The notes under the pieces: model-generated
Told to the model about the DNA's origin: nothing
Databases searched by the model: none
Seen by the model: only the letters and a program-made list of their open reading frames with translations
From: a virus
Strand: one strand, 5' to 3'
IMG/VR virus record: IMGVR_UViG_3300009788_000118
Location: 1 to 54,120 of that record
Length of the DNA stretch: 54,120 nt
Translations under genes and position numbers: made by a program
Shown here: positions 72 through 43,273 of the stretch, piece by piece
Position numbering within the stretch: position 1 is the first letter of the stretch
Layout: each line of letters opens with the position of its first letter

Positions 72-290
72 TCAACCCTCCCTTTTTATAAATATCTTTT
101 TTATTTCCGATAAATTTATTTCTTTAAATATTTTCATTCTCCAATAAGATCCTACAGTTACGATATCCTCAAACCTTTGCCCACGGAGATGTCTTATTTC
201 TTGAATATGCCTATGATTTCTTGAGTCAAGTTTTTTACTTCTAAGATAGTCTCGATAATGTTTTTGTGTTTCTGCTATAACTCCGATCAT
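72..290 (-). CDS. hypothetical protein, 72 aa
   Basis: A short basic protein of no recognised family, with several Arg/His/Lys residues around an SRNHRHIQEIRHLRG segment. The start overlaps the polymerase stop in an ATGA arrangement, and the stop abuts the next start at 71. It therefore lies in the middle of a translationally coupled minus-strand operon and is very likely expressed. Its function is unknown; nucleic-acid contact is only a guess from the charge. Confidence 0.7.
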   Translation of the reverse strand: MIGVIAETQKHYRDYLRSKKLDSRNHRHIQEIRHLRGQRFEDIVTVGSYWRMKIFKEINLSEIKKIFIKREG

Positions 291-2641
291 ATATCAATTA
301 CCTCCATTTCATCCCAATTCGGCCCTACTGATATCTCAACTGGAAGTGTATGAGTCTCGTCCCAGATTTTAAAAGGTATATCATAGGCCTCTTTTAATGC
401 GTGAGCAGCATTCATCACTTCAGGTTCTGGAACAGATAAAACTAGACCATCATGTAACTCCAAGAATACTGTGTAATGTTTATCAATCTCTTTCATCGCC
501 TTTTTGTTGATATCAGATGACGTACTCTGTGGAAGAAAGGCGTATCCTTTTCTATAGGTATCATCATCTTTTCTTCCAATAAAAACTTCTCGACGACCAA
601 AGGGATTATATAACATCCGACTTTTATTGATCTCTCGTTGAACATAAGTATGAAAGATAGCATGTACGCCTGGATAGGTTGCATGATATGTTGCGATATG
701 TGATTTTGCATCTGAGAAAGGGATGTTTGCCATACGAGCAAATTTCCATGGGCCAATTCCATAATTTCCGCCAAAGATGAGCGACTTAGCAATGGTGTAA
801 AGAGGATCATCTTTTGTCAATTCGATACCAAATACATTGAGTCCATTTTGGATATGAATCGAAACACCAGAATCAAAAAGAGCTATCATAGCGTTATCTT
901 GTGACCACCATCCACAAAGACGAGCTTCGGCTTGGGATTGATCTGCTCCAAGGAGAACTTGTTTTGGGCTCATGTTAGGTTCAGCGATGAAGAATCTTCT
1001 TTGGAGGCCAGTTTTTACATTTTGAAGATTCATCCCACCTTTACCAAATGCTTTTCGAGACTTAAATCGTCCAGTTTCTGCTCTGGGGGAATATTCTGTT
1101 AGAATACGACCATCGACAACATTTTCATCACTAAACAACCCAAGCTCTTTTCTAGCTGATCGAATATCAATGATCCATTTAGGTACATCTGTTTGATATT
1201 TATATGCCAACTTCTCTAAAGTTTTCTTTGCAGTAGCTTCTCCTTTGTATCTATCCATGCTCATACGATCATAAAGAAGAAAGCTTACTTGTTTAGGAGA
1301 ATTGATGTTTATTTTATCCATATTCTCCTTCAGTCGTTTTGATCCACCTGGAGCAAGAAGATGGTCGACATCTATCTCATATCCAGTTTCGTCTGTGATG
1401 TTTTGGGAATAGTCTCTGAGAAGCTGTTGACGTTCTTTGCGGACATCGGCTAGAAGTGGAACATCAACCGGAACTCCACGCATATTCATTTTAAAGATGA
1501 CTGGAATAATCTCTGCATAAAGATCAATATAGACATCCATCATCTTTTCTTCAATGAGCTCTTTACGAAGTTCGTCTATCGCCCAGTGAGGTGCGATACA
1601 ATCAAAACAGTTATATGTCCAATGATTCTTTTCACCTCCTGGCCTTAAGGAAGATCCTTTTTCTTCCTTTTCATCCTTTTTATAGAATTCAAGGTTTGTG
1701 TAGATGCTTGTGATATCATCGAGTTTGTGAGGCATTTCACTGTAGAGGCAGTGATGCATAAGCATTGGGTCCCATGTAGGCATTTTGAGATGGAGGCCAT
1801 GTTCAGCTAGAATCCTCCAGTCAAATAATACATTCTGATTTGCCATGTCCAACTCAGGAAGAACTTGAGACATTCTGCGCCATATAAATGCTTCTTGCTC
1901 AAGGCTCCAGTAGTTTGATCTATCTCCATTATAGAGTGGGATAGAGATAGCCTCGCGACGATTCCATGCGATTCCAATAGCTGATAACACATTCTGAGGG
2001 GTTTCGACATCAATAGTGTAGTATTCTGATGGATTGGTCTCTAAAAAGTCTAGAATCTCCATCACCTTGTCGAAATCAGGTTTAATGATAAAATCCCATG
2101 TTGGAAACTCAAACTCAAAATTTTTGTCTGCAATAGTTTTGATCTTAATAAGATCAGCGACAATGAGAATCCATACTTTGTAGTTATAATGAAGATTTGA
2201 CGGGTGTAATGTTGGAATGACAATGCAGTCATGTTTGATAGCGTTTTTAGGCTGTAGAGGCGATCCTCTAAAATGCGTGATGGACTTCTTATCCGTAAGT
2301 GCACGAAGTGCATAAGCCCCCATAGGAACAAGAATTTTGGGATCTGGAAGTGCATTGATTCTTGCGATGAGATCACTCTCCCAATACTTAATTTCTTCAT
2401 ATGACATCCTTTCAATCTTATCTCCAGGAGCACGGACCTCTGAGAGATTTTCAAGACGAACCTCTTCTCGGATAATGGCTGCAAGATTGAATAATTTATC
2501 TAAATATTGACCTGCTGATCCGACAAAGGGCTTCATTTCAAAAAGCTCATTTTTTGCAGGAGCTTCGCCAATAAAGACGAGTTCTGCATCTGCAGGTCCT
2601 GCAGCAGGAACTTTTACTTTACCTTCTAAGAATTGGTTCAT
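287..2641 (-). CDS. polA-like: uracil-DNA glycosylase-like / family A DNA polymerase fusion
   Basis: This is the phage replicative polymerase, with three domains in one 784-residue chain. Residues 1-165 are UDG-superfamily (family 4/5 type): a GEAPAKNE motif near 25, FVGSAGQYLD near 39, and HPS at 146-148. Residues 205-380 are a DnaQ-type proofreading domain with all three motifs: DVE at 211, NVLFD at 270 and YNCFD at 343. Residues 385-784 are a PolA palm and fingers, with motif A GADQSQAEARL (D567), motif B K619 followed by NYG, and motif C HD at 730-731. The Glu that often follows HD in motif C is Gly here, while both metal-binding aspartates are kept. The gene overlaps its neighbours by ATGA on both sides. 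Glycosylase activity is inferred only. Confidence 0.93.
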   Translation of the reverse strand: MNQFLEGKVKVPAAGPADAELVFIGEAPAKNELFEMKPFVGSAGQYLDKLFNLAAIIREEVRLENLSEVRAPGDKIERMSYEEIKYWESDLIARINALPDPKILVPMGAYALRALTDKKSITHFRGSPLQPKNAIKHDCIVIPTLHPSNLHYNYKVWILIVADLIKIKTIADKNFEFEFPTWDFIIKPDFDKVMEILDFLETNPSEYYTIDVETPQNVLSAIGIAWNRREAISIPLYNGDRSNYWSLEQEAFIWRRMSQVLPELDMANQNVLFDWRILAEHGLHLKMPTWDPMLMHHCLYSEMPHKLDDITSIYTNLEFYKKDEKEEKGSSLRPGGEKNHWTYNCFDCIAPHWAIDELRKELIEEKMMDVYIDLYAEIIPVIFKMNMRGVPVDVPLLADVRKERQQLLRDYSQNITDETGYEIDVDHLLAPGGSKRLKENMDKININSPKQVSFLLYDRMSMDRYKGEATAKKTLEKLAYKYQTDVPKWIIDIRSARKELGLFSDENVVDGRILTEYSPRAETGRFKSRKAFGKGGMNLQNVKTGLQRRFFIAEPNMSPKQVLLGADQSQAEARLCGWWSQDNAMIALFDSGVSIHIQNGLNVFGIELTKDDPLYTIAKSLIFGGNYGIGPWKFARMANIPFSDAKSHIATYHATYPGVHAIFHTYVQREINKSRMLYNPFGRREVFIGRKDDDTYRKGYAFLPQSTSSDINKKAMKEIDKHYTVFLELHDGLVLSVPEPEVMNAAHALKEAYDIPFKIWDETHTLPVEISVGPNWDEMEVIDI

Positions 2642-2832
2642 TCCTTAATTTCCTTTTCTAATCGGTTGATTAAACTAGATTTCCATTTATTGAGATTACC
2701 AAGAATTATGTTTAGATGCGTAGTATCTTCTAGATTATCAGGAGTATATGTATCTAATATTCCTCTTATATCAGATACTTTCGTTTTAAGTGATGCAAGT
2801 CTGAAAATTTTTGATAGTTTATTCGGCTCCAT
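2638..2832 (-). CDS. small hypothetical protein, 64 aa
   Basis: A longer in-frame extension upstream exists, but the ATG at 2832 (MEPNKLSK) lies inside the end of the preceding HTH gene with a 14-bp overlap, which fits the coupling seen throughout this operon. The stop overlaps the polymerase start as ATGA. The protein is charged and probably alpha-helical (KLSKIFRLASLKTKV, then LNKWKSSLINRLEKEIKE). No family is recognised. Its position directly before the polymerase suggests an accessory role, which is inference. Confidence 0.6.
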   Translation of the reverse strand: MEPNKLSKIFRLASLKTKVSDIRGILDTYTPDNLEDTTHLNIILGNLNKWKSSLINRLEKEIKE

Positions 2833-3046
2833 CTGTTTTAAGTCCCTCCCAGACTTTCTTATCAATAGAACCAATCTCATTTTTAAGGTTTCCAGCAAGC
2901 CATTTATCGATTTCCTCTTTGCTGAATCTCCAAGATCGTCCAATACGAATAGACGGAATTACTCCATCAGCGGCATATCGCTGAATGGTGACCTCATGAA
3001 GTCTTAGATATGCTGCTAGTTCCTTTGTCGTCATTATTTCTGGCAT
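2819..3046 (-). CDS. excisionase/MerR-type helix-turn-helix protein
   Basis: A 75-residue DNA-binding protein of the excisionase-family HTH_17 type. The pattern TTKELAAYLRLHEVTIQRYAADG, then IPSIRIGRSWRFSKEEIDKWL, is the classic winged helix-turn-helix with the wing residues RIGRSWRF. The ATG at 3046 is chosen over one seven codons upstream because TGGAGGA lies at proper spacing before it. Members of this family act as excisionases, plasmid regulators or phage regulators. No integrase is visible, so a regulatory or replication-accessory role between exonuclease and polymerase is as likely as excision. Confidence 0.85.
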   Translation of the reverse strand: MPEIMTTKELAAYLRLHEVTIQRYAADGVIPSIRIGRSWRFSKEEIDKWLAGNLKNEIGSIDKKVWEGLKTDGAE

Positions 3047-3073
3047 TGTTTTTCCTCCATTCTTCAAGAATTT

Positions 3074-3604
3074 TCATAAAAGGCTCATCGCATAACAACA
3101 ATATCGAATTTGATAATAACAGTCATCGAGAGCGGTATGAGCAATATTATCTGGACTTCGTGGATTTTCTTCTTTCCATTTATCGAGATCCATTCTTGAA
3201 AGACTGATAAGTGTTCTAATATCTCTCATGATTCGATAAGATGTATTAAATCTTGAAAAAAGTTTTTTAAAATGATTCATTATAATAACTCCATCGAACA
3301 TTGCATGAGACCAAATGCTTTCCGCTGACATTAGAAATTGATCAAGATTCATCCATGCCTCAGCAGACTTAACTAAAGGATCTCCAAAAATGAATTTTCT
3401 TGCTTCCTCTGATTGATTCATCCACCATTGAATGGTTGATGCATCAACTCCAAATCCACTTGTCATTTCAGTTGATAGATCGATATTAATTGAAAGATCT
3501 TTGCTCGTCCTTCCCGTAAAATCGAAGTAGACTGCTCCGATTTGAATGACAGCTGCGTTATTTGATGTGCTCATTGTTTCCAGATCAAGCATTACGTTTT
3601 TCAC
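3074..3604 (-). CDS. DexA/Rv2179c-like 3'-5' exonuclease
   Basis: A 176-residue DEDD-superfamily exonuclease. The opening VMLDLETMSTSNNAAVIQIGAVYFD matches the DexA/Rv2179c-like branch, with D and E of DLET as the first metal ligands. HAMFDG provides the middle Asp, and HTALDDCYYQ gives the final H-x4-D. Family members degrade 3' ends of RNA or single-stranded DNA. T4 DexA belongs to this group. The start overlaps the stop of the ParB-methyltransferase gene by ATGA, so the two are translated together. Confidence 0.85.
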   Translation of the reverse strand: MKNVMLDLETMSTSNNAAVIQIGAVYFDFTGRTSKDLSINIDLSTEMTSGFGVDASTIQWWMNQSEEARKFIFGDPLVKSAEAWMNLDQFLMSAESIWSHAMFDGVIIMNHFKKLFSRFNTSYRIMRDIRTLISLSRMDLDKWKEENPRSPDNIAHTALDDCYYQIRYCCYAMSLL

Positions 3605-5013
3605 TCTTCGCTCTCCTCTCCTTCTTCACCATCCTCTGCCATTAATCCCGAAATCCTTGCAAGCCCTTTTTCATACGCCTCTTTATTGTTATCAATAGCA
3701 ATTGATCTCCTGCCCGACAATGTTGCAGCAACTGTGGTAACGAATGAGCCGGCACAGGGATCAAGTACAATTTGATTAGGTTGAGTGGATACTTTGATCA
3801 AGCGCTCGATCAACTCAATCGGCTTTTCTTGGGTGTGATATCTCTCAGTAGTAAGTGGGCGGTTGATGTTGAATACATTTGACGTGGGTTCATTAAGCGG
3901 ACGAACTCGTTCTCTGGAGCAGAAAAGAATTGTTTCATATCGTGGCATAAACTTATTCTCGAAATCTGTGAATCCTCCACCTTCCTTGACCCAGATTAAG
4001 GGAATCTCTTCGACATGAAACTTCCACGTAAGAGTCTCAACATGCGCTTGAATTTTGGCTAGAAGATTATCATAGTGGAGACTGAGATTAGGAAAATTAA
4101 CAGCCATGATCTCACACATTTCGATAGATTTTTGGAACCCTGAAAGAAGATCGATATAAAAATCTTTATACTGCATCCCAATAAACATATATAAATGAGC
4201 ATCCTCTTTCATAACTCGATGAAGTTCTGGGAGAAGGTTCATGGTGAGTTTGATTGCAGACTCTTCAGTATCGTCTTTATAGGATGTTTTCTCTCCACGA
4301 GGACCGCGAGAGGATGCAATACGATGAACATCTATTCCCCAAGGAGGATCAAATATAACAAGATCAATTGTGTCATTGTCGATTCTCTTTGAGACGATGT
4401 CTATAGCATCTCCATGATATAAAAGATAAGGAATCGAGACCATTTGATCTTTCTCTGCTTCTCGCCTAGCAAGCTCAGTTAAAATAGCAGTCTCGTTTAC
4501 TTTATCTAAAACTTTTAATGCTTGGCGACGTGATGCCATATCTTTCAATCCTGGCAGAATTTCCATAGCATGTACAAGAGCCGTATCTTGAGAAATTGTA
4601 GCTGCAGATACATTCAAAAGCTCTGCAGATTTCTCAACACCCCATCCCTCAGATTTATGACCCTTTACGGCCTCACCATGAATTTTCTGATATAAGTTAT
4701 GGATTTCGGTACGAAGCTTTGCTTTTTCATCCCATGTGAGTTCTTTGTGGATGTTTTCCTCAAGCTCATAAAGTTTTTTCTCCATTCCGGTAAGATCTTC
4801 CTTGAATTTGCATTCAATAATACCAAGGTTGAGATCTATATGACATGATAGCCTACGAAATCCTGCGACAAGAGTCATATCTTTCTTATTTACGAGAATA
4901 GGATGAATTAATCCTCGTTTATCAATGCTCTCCTTGAGTTGTTCGTAGTCATCTCCTAATTCCATCCGAGCTCGAGAAGTAATTATGACTTCTTCAACCT
5001 TGATTTTTGGCAT
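3601..5013 (-). CDS. ParB-like nuclease domain / beta-class DNA methyltransferase fusion
   Basis: The 470-residue protein joins two domains. Residues 1-110 resemble ParB/Spo0J: the GLIHPILVNKK stretch near 34 and the box GFRRL at 51-55. Residues about 195-450 are an SAM-dependent amino-methyltransferase with FDPPWG (motif IV, 222-225) before DPCAGSFVTTVAA (motif I, near 430), the beta-class order typical of N6-adenine or N4-cytosine enzymes. The tail is acidic (EDGEEGEESEE). It probably methylates phage DNA at a site it selects itself, for protection from restriction or for regulation. No cognate restriction enzyme is nearby. The target sequence cannot be read from the protein. Confidence 0.88.
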   Translation of the reverse strand: MPKIKVEEVIITSRARMELGDDYEQLKESIDKRGLIHPILVNKKDMTLVAGFRRLSCHIDLNLGIIECKFKEDLTGMEKKLYELEENIHKELTWDEKAKLRTEIHNLYQKIHGEAVKGHKSEGWGVEKSAELLNVSAATISQDTALVHAMEILPGLKDMASRRQALKVLDKVNETAILTELARREAEKDQMVSIPYLLYHGDAIDIVSKRIDNDTIDLVIFDPPWGIDVHRIASSRGPRGEKTSYKDDTEESAIKLTMNLLPELHRVMKEDAHLYMFIGMQYKDFYIDLLSGFQKSIEMCEIMAVNFPNLSLHYDNLLAKIQAHVETLTWKFHVEEIPLIWVKEGGGFTDFENKFMPRYETILFCSRERVRPLNEPTSNVFNINRPLTTERYHTQEKPIELIERLIKVSTQPNQIVLDPCAGSFVTTVAATLSGRRSIAIDNNKEAYEKGLARISGLMAEDGEEGEESEE

Positions 5014-5280
5014 CTAATCCTCCTTAATTTTTAATGCGTTTCGAACAGCATTTAAAACATATTCATCCATATGAAAAACCATTTCAATAGCGTCATACCA
5101 ATCTGTTCCTCTAACTGAATCCATTAAGATAACTAAATCTTTAGGAATCGGTCGAGTGTTATGTTCGACTTTTGAGAGATAGGATATAGAACATCCAATA
5201 CGATCTGCAACGTTTTGGAGGGTCCATCCTTGACCGATTCGTGCAAGACGAACTCGATTGCCATCGCTTAAGATTATCAT
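5014..5280 (-). CDS. XRE-family helix-turn-helix regulator
   Basis: An 88-residue Cro/CI-type DNA-binding protein. The helix-turn-helix reads RLARIGQGWTLQNVADRIG, then SISYLSKVEHNTRPIPKDL, where SYLSKVE is the recognition-helix signature. It has no C-terminal protease or oligomerisation domain, so it is a simple DNA-binding unit. It lies in the replication operon directly before the ParB-methyltransferase and is coupled by overlap to the gene upstream. It is a candidate ligand for the palindromic elements described elsewhere in this window, with no direct evidence. Confidence 0.87.
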   Translation of the reverse strand: MIILSDGNRVRLARIGQGWTLQNVADRIGCSISYLSKVEHNTRPIPKDLVILMDSVRGTDWYDAIEMVFHMDEYVLNAVRNALKIKED

Positions 5281-23284: not shown

Positions 23285-23895
23285 GTCTTTTTTTGGGCCG
23301 TAAGTGCCTGAAATAACTCAAGAAAGTCATATACCTGTAAGTTTCACTGTAAACCGAGAAACTTAGTAATTTCAGACACTTACGCGCCCTAAAACATGCG
23401 ATCCCATGCCTTATCCTGTTCAACGGCTGATGCTAGTCACTTGATTGGTCAAAGGGATGGGCTGAGTGATACATTCAAGCAAAGGGATAGGCTAGGAAGC
23501 CTTCCAGTGAGTGCAGGAACTCTGAATTATCCTCTAGCTTAACGCTGGAGGTATCGTGTATCGTATCTTGATCCATCGTTCCTACTCCGCTGCTCTGAGT
23601 TATCCCGGCGACTCCCCGTAACCCCTTGATTTTTCTCGGTTTACCTTGAGTTATCCCTCACCTAGTTTAACCCAATTTAACAACACAAAAAACCCAACAA
23701 TTCCGGTCTCTTACCAGTTATCCCAATTTCCCAGTTATCCCTCTGGTAGTCACTTTCAAAAGCGGTAAAAATACGAACATGACCCATCTCTCACTTGCTC
23801 CTCCCTCCGATTCGGGTTGGGTGCATTGACTTATGGAAAAATAAATAAAAAAATATACAAGCTACCTTTACTTCTCTTTCCTTACCACCTCCTCC

Positions 23896-23925
23896 GTAAT
23901 TTCACCCCGTTAAAAATACGGAGAT
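23896..23925 (+). repeat. 30-bp dispersed semi-palindromic element, copy 4
   Basis: Reads GTAATTTCACCCCG, then TTAAAAATACGGAGAT. It is near-identical to copy 2 and sits in the middle of the repeat region. Confidence 0.75.
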
Positions 23926-24228
23926 GAGATATAGACATGTTGACCCTTTCCAATTTGTGTAAAACGACCTCCGGACAGATAACTGGGAAATTAGGGAAAC
24001 TTGTAAGTGTTTGAAATTGTTGGAGAAAACGTGTTGTTTAATTGAGTTAAATATAGTGAGGGATAACTGGGGGATAACCTAGTTATTTCAACGACTTAGG
24101 AGGGGCCAGACCTTTACTCTGGGATAACTCTATCTAATTAGATGGATCAAATTAGTGTAACCGACTGAAATAACTAGGTTTTTAGCTCTACCCGTAACCC
24201 TCCGATTTTCTTGGAGAAATTGAGTTCC

Positions 24229-24358: not shown

Positions 24359-24374
24359 TGGCACAGTTCTTGCA
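24359..24374 (+). promoter_or_regulatory. sigma-54 (RpoN) promoter 1
   Basis: TGGCAC-AGTTC-TTGCA matches the sigma-54 consensus (TGGCAC, 5 bp, TTGC) exactly, with GG and GC 10 bp apart. A transcript would begin near 24385 and run through the two palindrome arrays. No well-supported gene follows directly; a 32-codon frame at 24402 lacks a suitable ribosome site, so the product could be a small RNA or a leader. Confidence 0.7.
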
Positions 24375-24474
24375 AGGGAGGATTCGGCTCGATCACGACA
24401 ATGGATGATCTCACCTATCACCGACAATGGATGATCCGACAATACTCCCGACACTTATGCCGGCTGCAGGCATC

Positions 24475-24559
24475 TTGTGAAAACCTTCACAAAGGCATGT
24501 GAAAATTTTCACGATCGCTTGTGAATCTTTTCACTTGATCCTTGTGAAAGGATTCACAT
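24475..24559. repeat. array A: four palindromes GTGAA-N4-TTCAC at 22-bp spacing
   Basis: Four 14-bp palindromes (GTGAAAACCTTCAC, GTGAAAATTTTCAC, GTGAATCTTTTCAC, GTGAAAGGATTCAC) start at 24477, 24499, 24521 and 24544. The spacing of 22, 22 and 23 bp is about two helical turns, so bound dimers would all lie on one face of the DNA. This is a typical operator or enhancer array for a dimeric regulator. Confidence 0.85.
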
Positions 24560-24561
24560 TG

Positions 24562-24717
24562 TGTCAAAATATTGACAGCCACATTGTGATATCCTACTTT
24601 GTGGTATGTCAAAATATTGACGGAACCAGGACACATCAGGTATTTAAGACCTTTTTTGTCCTAGTTAGATGTGTCAAAAAATTGACGCTCGCTTGCCAGA
24701 TCGTCAAAATATTGGCA
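24562..24717. repeat. array B: four palindromes TGTCAAAATATTGACA
   Basis: Copies start at 24562 (perfect), 24607, 24672 and 24702, with at most two differences each. The pattern is TGT-N10-ACA, the same form as the upstream activator site of NifA-type sigma-54 activators. The array lies 185-340 bp upstream of sigma-54 promoter 2. The activator itself is not encoded in this window. Confidence 0.8.
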
Positions 24718-24723
24718 CTGTGA

Positions 24724-24784
24724 AATAAAGCCACAGTTCGCTATAAGTTGCTGATTTTACAGCATATTTTACTGTGGCTTTATT
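24724..24784. repeat. perfect 14-bp inverted repeat with nested hairpin
   Basis: AATAAAGCCACAGT (24724-24737) and ACTGTGGCTTTATT (24771-24784) are exact inverted copies, with TGCTG/CAGCA (24749-24764) nested inside. It could form an RNA hairpin ending a transcript from promoter 1 or be a protein site. Confidence 0.65.
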
Positions 24785-24900
24785 GCCAGAATCGTGGTCT
24801 TTTTACCACAAATTTCCAGTGCAATTTTCTCGTTGCCATTTTTCTGGGGGCTAACTTGCTGATATCACTCATAAAAATAGTTCAGTTCCTCGCCCCTTTT

Positions 24901-24916
24901 TGGCACAAAAGTTGCA
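24901..24916 (+). promoter_or_regulatory. sigma-54 (RpoN) promoter 2
   Basis: TGGCAC-AAAAG-TTGCA matches the -24/-12 consensus exactly. The start would be an A near 24927, followed 20 bp later by the GGGAGGAAC ribosome site of the zinc-ribbon gene at 24947. The palindrome arrays lie upstream as candidate enhancer sites. Confidence 0.8.
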
Positions 24917-24946
24917 CCTTAAAAGTAGTAAAAAGGGAGGAACCAA

Positions 24947-25111
24947 ATGAAAAAAGCAAGTCGAAAAATAGGAACACCAAAACAGAGGGTAGTTTTTCAG
25001 TGCAATTTCTGTCAACACATTTGGAAAAGGATGATCTCACCTAAAACTTTTGAGGTTGTCTGCCCTAAGTGCAAGGAAATTGACACTGAAATTATTGGGA
25101 TCACAGAGTAA
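24947..25111 (+). CDS. small zinc-ribbon protein, 54 aa
   Basis: MKKASRKIGTPKQRVVFQCN then FCQHIW, and 20 residues later VCPKCKEI, form a zinc ribbon with the CNFC and CPKC knuckles. AAAAGGGAGGAACC precedes the start. It is the first gene of the sigma-54 mini-operon. Possibly a regulator or RNA/DNA-binding protein. Confidence 0.75.
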   Translation: MKKASRKIGTPKQRVVFQCNFCQHIWKRMISPKTFEVVCPKCKEIDTEIIGITE

Positions 25112-25236: not shown

Positions 25237-25560
25237 ATGACAAAGTTAAGCGCAAAACTCGTTAAAGAAACTAAAACTCACAGAACTCTGAGTGTTCCTG
25301 CTTATTCAGACGGAGTCCTGGTCGGTTGGGGTCAAGTTGAAGTATTCCAGACCACTCCGGCAGGGTTAGAGGCAGCCCGCAAGGCTTTAACAAAAGGTAA
25401 CGTAGTTGACCTTAATCGGCAGACTATTACCGATGTTAAGAACGCTATAAGGACCGGAAGGTCATTATGGGCAGCTTTAAAGAAGGAGAGCGCAAAGAAC
25501 CCTGAATTAGCTAAAGAGGTCGAAGTCTTGGCTAAAAAGTACGGGTTTAACGTGAAGTAG
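25237..25560 (+). CDS. hypothetical protein, paralogue of the 11921-12247 product
   Basis: The ATG at 25237 (MTKLSAKLVKETKTHRTLSV) has GGGAGGTGA at good spacing; the longer frame has none. Shared blocks with the left-arm paralogue are VPAYS, LNRQTITDVKNAIR and KNPELAKEVEVLAKKYGF. It is the last gene of the sigma-54 mini-operon and is followed by a terminator. Both paralogues are thus single, strongly expressed units under different promoters. Confidence 0.75.
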   Translation: MTKLSAKLVKETKTHRTLSVPAYSDGVLVGWGQVEVFQTTPAGLEAARKALTKGNVVDLNRQTITDVKNAIRTGRSLWAALKKESAKNPELAKEVEVLAKKYGFNVK

Positions 25561-25616: not shown

Positions 25617-25655
25617 TAGGGCGGTCTGACTAATTAGAGGCCGCCCTTTCTTATT
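25617..25655 (+). terminator. rho-independent terminator
   Basis: GGGCGG (25619-25624) pairs with CCGCCC (25641-25646), extended by TCT/AGA with a small bulge, then TTTCTTATTT. It ends the sigma-54 mini-operon before the late promoter. Confidence 0.8.
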
Positions 25656-25926
25656 TAGCACACCTCGAACCGAATTAAACTCAATTTAACTGAATAAAAT
25701 GCATTTTTACACAATTTAAAATTTCTGGGGAGGCATCTCGAACCGAGCATCGATTTTCAACTAGATAGCAAAGACTACAAAGGTGTGTGAGAGGGGATGG
25801 AGGAGAGTGGCAAACGCATGGAGGCGAACGCCTCTAATCCGTATAAAGTCCTTGACAAAGGGCGAGGGGTATGGTATTCTAGGATCAGATGGATATGAAT
25901 AGCGGAGACTATAAAGGTGGGTAGAG
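25656..25926 (+). promoter_or_regulatory. late-arm leader with sigma-70 promoter and direct repeats
   Basis: A near-consensus promoter, TTGACA (25852-25857), 17 bp, TATTCT (25875-25880), drives the terminase operon. Upstream lie a 28-bp direct repeat (ATAGCAAAGACTACAAAGGTG at 25765 with one differing extension, second copy at 25899 beginning ATAGCGGAGACTATAAAGG), CTCGAACCGA twice (25664, 25737), and the palindrome GAGGCGAACGCCTC (25821-25834). Its position right before the small terminase fits a packaging (pac/cos) or operator site. No gene is seen in it. Confidence 0.7.
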
Positions 25927-42901: not shown

Positions 42902-43273
42902 ATGGCCGTCGAACTAGAGATTTTTGATATTGGCGTATTGAAGGCCGATGCTGATCGTAGCGGGAAACAGTTTTATTTCATGAAGATGTCTTCCACTGAT
43001 TTCACATTCAGTCTCTGTGGAGCTGGTGAGGTTCCTTTAGGCATTCTTCAGAATAAGCCTGCTGCTGCAGGACGAGCTGGCCAAATTCGTCGAGTTGGAC
43101 TCTCCAAGTTAGTTCTTGGAGGCACTGTGGCTGCAGGAGGTTTGATTAAGTCCGATGCAGCTGGCGCAGGAGTTGCTGCTGATACGAATAACGACAACTA
43201 CGGTGCCATGTGTCTCGAAGGTGGGGACTCCGGAGATACCGTCACGGTTTTGATGGAATTCGGCGAAGTTTAA
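42902..43273 (+). CDS. capsid decoration protein, DUF2190-like
   Basis: A 123-residue beta-rich protein with GEVPLGILQNKPAAAGRAGQ, then LGGTVAAGGLIKSDAAGAGV and TVTVLMEFGEV. This is the layout of the small decoration protein found between scaffold and major capsid protein in many phages. Expected to stabilise the head. Confidence 0.8.
   Translation: MAVELEIFDIGVLKADADRSGKQFYFMKMSSTDFTFSLCGAGEVPLGILQNKPAAAGRAGQIRRVGLSKLVLGGTVAAGGLIKSDAAGAGVAADTNNDNYGAMCLEGGDSGDTVTVLMEFGEV

Follow-up and report, generated by a model that had tools for sequence, protein, structure and literature searches.

Two candidate σ54 promoters flank FleQ-like palindromes in a phage control region

Positions 24359 to 24946 of the window, by which we mean the whole 54,120-bp IMG/VR virus record that was analyzed, probably form an enhancer-dependent phage control module, in which host σ54 polymerase would be switched on by a host FleQ-type activator and the second of two σ54-type sites, P2, would drive a two-gene operon. 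From left to right, the region contains P1, four GTGAA-N4-TTCAC palindromes, three GTCAA-N4-TTGAC boxes with a fourth, degenerate one behind them, an inverted repeat resembling a terminator, two sites matching the integration host factor (IHF) consensus, P2, a ribosome site, and the genes (Table 1). The first IHF site sits within the loop of the inverted repeat.

Results

A sequence-only reading had reported two perfect TGGCAC-N5-TTGCA sites on the plus strand of the gene-free region, with no further perfect copy in the window. Both sites are exact, and when we scanned both strands for TGGCACN5TTGCW, P1 and P2 were the sole matches, as that reading had it. Shuffled versions of the window (n = 100) contained a mean of 0.03 matches, and none contained two. 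Each site carries the -24/-12 pattern of σ54 promoters, including the invariant GG and GC. The σ54 matrix scan that had been proposed as a check was run on the window with a matrix that approximates those of the literature; P1 was the best hit, and the next after P2 scored 14.2 bits (at 43162), so the spread of similar scores through coding DNA that was to count against the sites was not seen. With two mismatches allowed there were 16 matches against 10.4 expected, placing degenerate copies near background. The two sites are co-oriented. To their left, the minus-strand arm (last start codon at about 23576) encodes a ParB-methylase and a DNA polymerase of 784 aa; to their right, the plus-strand arm encodes the terminase, portal, and major head protein. 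P1 and P2 match the pattern perfectly, lie between genes in one orientation, and have no equal elsewhere in the window; they stand with enhancer-like palindromes and IHF-like sites in a combination that recurs in unrelated phages. On these grounds they are very probably real σ54 promoters.

Table 1 Features of the control region and its surroundings
Feature	Position	Strand	Remarks
GTTATCCC repeats, seven	23598..24130		in two groups of opposite orientation, between the left and right arms; possible origin or operator
P1, σ54 -24/-12 site TGGCACAGTTCTTGCA	24359..24374	+	predicted +1 about 24385; 19.9 bits
GTGAA-N4-TTCAC palindromes, four	24477..24557 (24477, 24499, 24521, 24544)		spacing 22, 22, 23 bp; the window's only four
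FleQ-like box 1 GTCAAAATATTGAC	24563..24576
FleQ-like box 2 GTCAAAATATTGAC	24608..24621
FleQ-like box 3 GTCAAAAAATTGAC	24673..24686		identical to the FleQ consensus published for P. putida, GTCAaAAAAtTGAC (PMC6120874)
Degenerate fourth box GTCAAAATATTGGC	24703..24716
Perfect 14-bp inverted repeat AATAAAGCCACAGT/ACTGTGGCTTTATT, terminator-like	24724..24784	+	would end the P1 transcript at about 400 nt
Putative IHF site AATCAGCAACTTA	24744..24756	-	consensus WATCARNNNNTTR
Putative IHF site TATCAGCAAGTTA	24852..24864	-	consensus WATCARNNNNTTR
P2, σ54 -24/-12 site TGGCACAAAAGTTGCA	24901..24916	+	predicted +1 about 24927, with the zinc-ribbon ATG 20 nt further on; 18.6 bits
Zinc-ribbon-like protein, 54 aa, CxxC...CxxC	24947..25111	+	first gene after P2; ribosome site GGGAGG at 24935-24940; ATG at 24947
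107-aa protein of unknown family	25237..25560	+	second gene after P2; ribosome site GGGAGGTG
Intrinsic-terminator-like GGGCGGTCT...AGGCCGCCC-TTTCTTATTT	25619..25655	+	closes the mini-operon; read from sequence
σ70-like promoter TTGACA-17-TATTCT	25852..25880	+	upstream of the terminase genes

The earlier statement that P2 is correctly placed before a strong ribosome site and a zinc-ribbon gene agrees with the spacing in Table 1. The 54-aa product of this gene has Pfam zinc-ribbon and zinc-finger matches, all under curated cutoffs. A consensus terminator scan, limited to loops of up to 8 nt, did not list the hairpin after the second gene. The terminase genes have a σ70-like promoter of their own and therefore need not depend on P2; a relative of the phage (L002) has a similar TTGACA-17-TATCCT in the same place. 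Downstream of P1, we found no gene with a ribosome site before the terminator-like inverted repeat, just a 33-aa open reading frame lacking a ribosome site in the first part. At this repeat, the consensus scan listed just a smaller hairpin in its loop. Folding of the P1 RNA compared with shuffles gave a z score of -9.6, a value that DNA palindromes alone would produce; thus, we drew nothing from the fold. A search of Rfam returned no RNA at gathering score, the best matches being weak and below the cutoff.

The sequence-only reading had passed over the palindrome clusters between P1 and P2. The window's seven exact palindromes of both types all fall inside 24477-24686. Its three exact GTCAA-N4-TTGAC boxes are all between P1 and P2, against about 0.06 expected per window. 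FleQ is a σ54 enhancer-binding protein, and the window boxes carry the GTCA(A)-N4-(T)TGAC pattern of FleQ/FlrA targets. The FleQ consensus is given as GTCaNTAAAtTGAC for P. aeruginosa and GTCAaAAAAtTGAC for P. putida in PMC6120874, where a chromatin immunoprecipitation sequencing study found the consensus unreliable genome-wide. Enhancers of this class are usually repeated activator-site palindromes within a few hundred base pairs; repeated palindromes are present here, and the match to FleQ suggests that an activator would bind them. We consider it likely that the GTCAA boxes are activator sites. Arrays of GTGAA-N4-TTCAC similar to that of the window lie near other phage genes in viral contigs that have no σ54 sites beside them. 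Therefore, we do not call the GTGAA palindromes enhancers.

A bend in the interval between enhancer and promoter, by IHF or otherwise, is common though not universal in such systems. By sequence, two sites matching WATCARNNNNTTR, which we take to be the IHF consensus, lie in the 184 bp separating the boxes from P2 (P = 0.0004, shuffles). The GTTATCCC repeats are outside the σ54 module and are a possible origin or operator.

We asked which activator might serve these promoters. A profile search of the window found neither a Sigma54_activat domain (PF00158) nor a Fis-type helix-turn-helix (PF02954). Among phage records, several of them fragments, the counts were 0 of 16 for PF00158 and 0 of 12 for PF02954. 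Since the phage has neither domain, a host enhancer-binding protein would be needed, in accord with the earlier reading. That reading had further suggested nitrogen, stress, or phosphotransfer signals; this part did not hold up, because the boxes match FleQ instead, and flagellar/c-di-GMP control is the better guess. FleQ/FlrA of the host is our best single guess for the activator, and a tentative one.

These observations are consistent with the following mechanism. Host RNA polymerase bearing σ54 would occupy P1 and P2 as inactive closed complexes, and a host FleQ/FlrA-type protein would bind the GTCAA-N4-TTGAC boxes (24563-24716). With the DNA bent by IHF at 24744 and 24852, the activator could loop to P2, 217 to 357 bp away, and the opened promoter would transcribe the zinc-ribbon and 107-aa genes up to the terminator. 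Relative to the P1 start, the boxes are 185 to 325 bp downstream, and they might activate this promoter too, since FleQ reportedly acts from downstream sites; a paper listed in PMC6120874 (Jyot et al. 2002) indicates by its title that FleQ enhancers can be downstream of the RpoN site. P1 might yield an RNA of roughly 400 nt or a leader peptide of 33 aa. Under this scheme, expression would track the motility state and c-di-GMP level of the host.

To see how often the combination recurs, we scanned viral contigs (2.9 million) for σ54 sites with GTCAA-N4-TTGAC no more than 30 bp downstream. There were 22 such stretches, versus 2 for a control palindrome of the same letters, CTGAA-N4-TTCAG, and the reversed pattern was absent from all virus records examined for the combination. 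Three of the composites (L124, L131, and L133) are chance matches in coding DNA, where a single open frame runs for about 735 codons, and a fourth (L130) is probably another. The other 18 are crossed by open frames of at most 116 codons and fall into a few groups. The first, L032/G001 and its relatives, is T5-like by its terminase (49% to Vibrio T5-like phages) and has many σ54 cores and 13 boxes. In the second, L123/G005, several σ54 cores flank two boxes in a divergent region, mostly pointing toward the next gene. The third consists of L129/G011, L141, and L143. Searches for the box only additionally gave L012/G015, L185, and G017. Protein sharing places G001, G017, L143, and L185 in a single loose group, and G005, G011, G015, L141, and the window have at most one weakly similar protein in common. 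We count about six independent lineages with the σ54-plus-box combination, the window included. Outside loci selected for σ54 sites, we counted 12 σ54 cores in 159 kb near boxes (5 of them from one array) versus 10 in 1.75 Mb far from boxes. Of box-bearing viral loci, 7 of 223 had a nearby σ54 site, and viral contigs often carry exact TGTCAAAATATTGAC by itself, mostly without σ54 sites.

The same composite occurred at 44 places in about 85,000 bacterial genomes. All 16 of those in Vibrio are upstream of fliE, with the box downstream of the promoter, and two more bacterial composites are upstream of flgA (Pfam ChapFlgA, ChapFlgA_N). The MS-ring genes of Vibrio are early genes that depend on FlrA and RpoN (PMC3930126). 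The remaining composites precede a pilin gene, an NtrC-family activator, or an oxidoreductase-like gene (Burkholderiales) or lie in coding DNA; since some precede nonflagellar genes, other activators may read the GTCAA box. A strict arrangement with the box upstream at 25- to 55-bp spacing was found in 1 of 369 Gammaproteobacteria.

DNA comparison of the window with known phages gave no useful match. The best matches of the terminase, polymerase, portal, and ParB-methylase were about 22 to 40% identical and scattered, indicating no host, and our searches found no viral relatives of the 107-aa protein or the DNA polymerase. Two records are related by terminase: L001 stops short of the control region, and the L002 control region has no σ54 site. 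No close relative spans the window's control region. In L002, the terminase large subunit (1517-4051) has a big in-frame insertion that looks intein-like (844 aa versus 496 aa). The ParB-methyltransferase and PolA-type polymerase encoded at 287-5013 of the window follow the gene order of Desulfofustis phage LS06-2018-MD01, at about 25% identity. This gives a weak hint of a host; that phage lacks the σ54 and box sites.

Discussion

Accounts of phage gene expression mostly involve σ70 or sigma factors and polymerases encoded by the phage. The remark in the sequence-only reading that RpoN-driven phage genes are rare needs qualifying: σ54 phage promoters are a known class, and there are also two cultured T5-like Vibrio phages with near-perfect σ54 clusters. 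The precedent is Pseudomonas phage YuA (Yuavirus), whose record annotates three high-activity -24/-12 promoters; Ceyssens et al. in 2008 reportedly showed their rpoN dependence. Like the window, YuA is a phage with host σ54-type promoters. However, its sites are inside the structural and lysis region, degenerate, and far from consensus, and they have no GTCAA-N4-TTGAC box, whereas those of the window are perfect and lie in a divergent control region with enhancer-like boxes.

That the YuA promoters lack such boxes lends something to an alternative that we consider unlikely: P1 and P2 are σ54 promoters, the palindromes are origin iterons or else operators bound by a repressor of the phage or its host, and the activator acts through other sites or from solution. 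Palindrome arrays phased at 22 bp look like operators or iterons, and GTGAA arrays occur in other viral contigs with no σ54 site. The phage also encodes an HTH_3 regulator (5014-5280), and the nearby GTTATCCC repeats suggest an origin. This explanation does not fit well with the GTCAA boxes, which accompany σ54 sites in unrelated phages and at flagellar promoters, or with the IHF-like sites, which are placed exactly between the boxes and P2. We prefer the enhancer-dependent module.

The module also resembles the FleQ/FlrA-dependent early flagellar promoters exemplified by Vibrio fliE, which combine a σ54 site with GTCAA-N4-TTGAC and have the box downstream, as for P1. Those promoters drive flagellar genes on the host chromosome, whereas the window has several boxes, farther off, both upstream (of P2) and downstream (of P1). 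In VF16 and vB_ValS_X1, the cultured T5-like Vibrio phages, near-perfect σ54 sites are confined to a control region in or near the pre-early DNA. VF16 has TGGCAYN5TTGC at 4490, 6697, and 6953, within a 7.4-kb terminal repeat, and none in the other 106 kb read; in vB_ValS_X1, all six copies in the 92 kb read fall at 85,870-89,102. Neither has exact GTCAA-N4-TTGAC boxes there, and both are unrelated to the window phage. In T5 itself, σ70 is said to serve all three classes of genes (PMC7472727). Limnohabitans phage DC31 likewise has two divergent near-perfect σ54 sites (20108 and 20304) in a gene-free region, but that region is origin-like, with DnaA-box-like TTATCCACA repeats and 20-bp iterons, and has no GTCAA boxes. 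As far as searches of the open-access literature show, no phage control region that joins σ54 sites to enhancers of the flagellar type and IHF sites appears to have been described before.

If the module works as proposed, the phage program would require a host activator that consumes ATP and senses the state of motility. Infection would then be tied to c-di-GMP or flagellar state in a way that can be tested directly, and the sequence signature could serve to find such phages in metagenomes. A broader and more speculative idea, which we hold to be rather doubtful, is that a number of unrelated phage lineages, among them T5-like phages (in or close to their first-entering DNA), independently built control regions from σ54 sites and FleQ-type boxes and thereby read the host flagellar/c-di-GMP decision at the start of infection, with extreme cases amplified into arrays that titrate host σ54 or the flagellar regulator.

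Titration might even be the whole function: the sites would be decoys for host σ54 polymerase or the flagellar activator that shut off motility or other host genes and drive no phage genes. G017, with five tandem σ54 cores at a 26-bp period, five more at 28 bp, and 11 exact boxes, is too dense for independent promoters, and P1 has no clear gene. For the window, this explanation is improbable, since it has just two sites and P2 is properly spaced from a ribosome site and gene. The lack of a gene after P1 could also mean that the matches are chance or unused relics, but with 0.03 sites expected by chance and with co-orientation, intergenic position, boxes, and IHF sites all in place, this is very improbable.

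The dense arrays just described stand in L308 (IMGVR_UViG_3300042902_000064, 54600-60200), where five tandem copies of TGGCATGATTCTTGC at a 26-bp period lie beside 11 exact GTCAAAAAATTGAC boxes, and there are five tandem copies of TGGCAYGGATCTTGC at a 28-bp period. All 12 σ54 cores of this 91.6-kb record lie inside 3 kb. It is possible that these are titration arrays for σ54 or FleQ.
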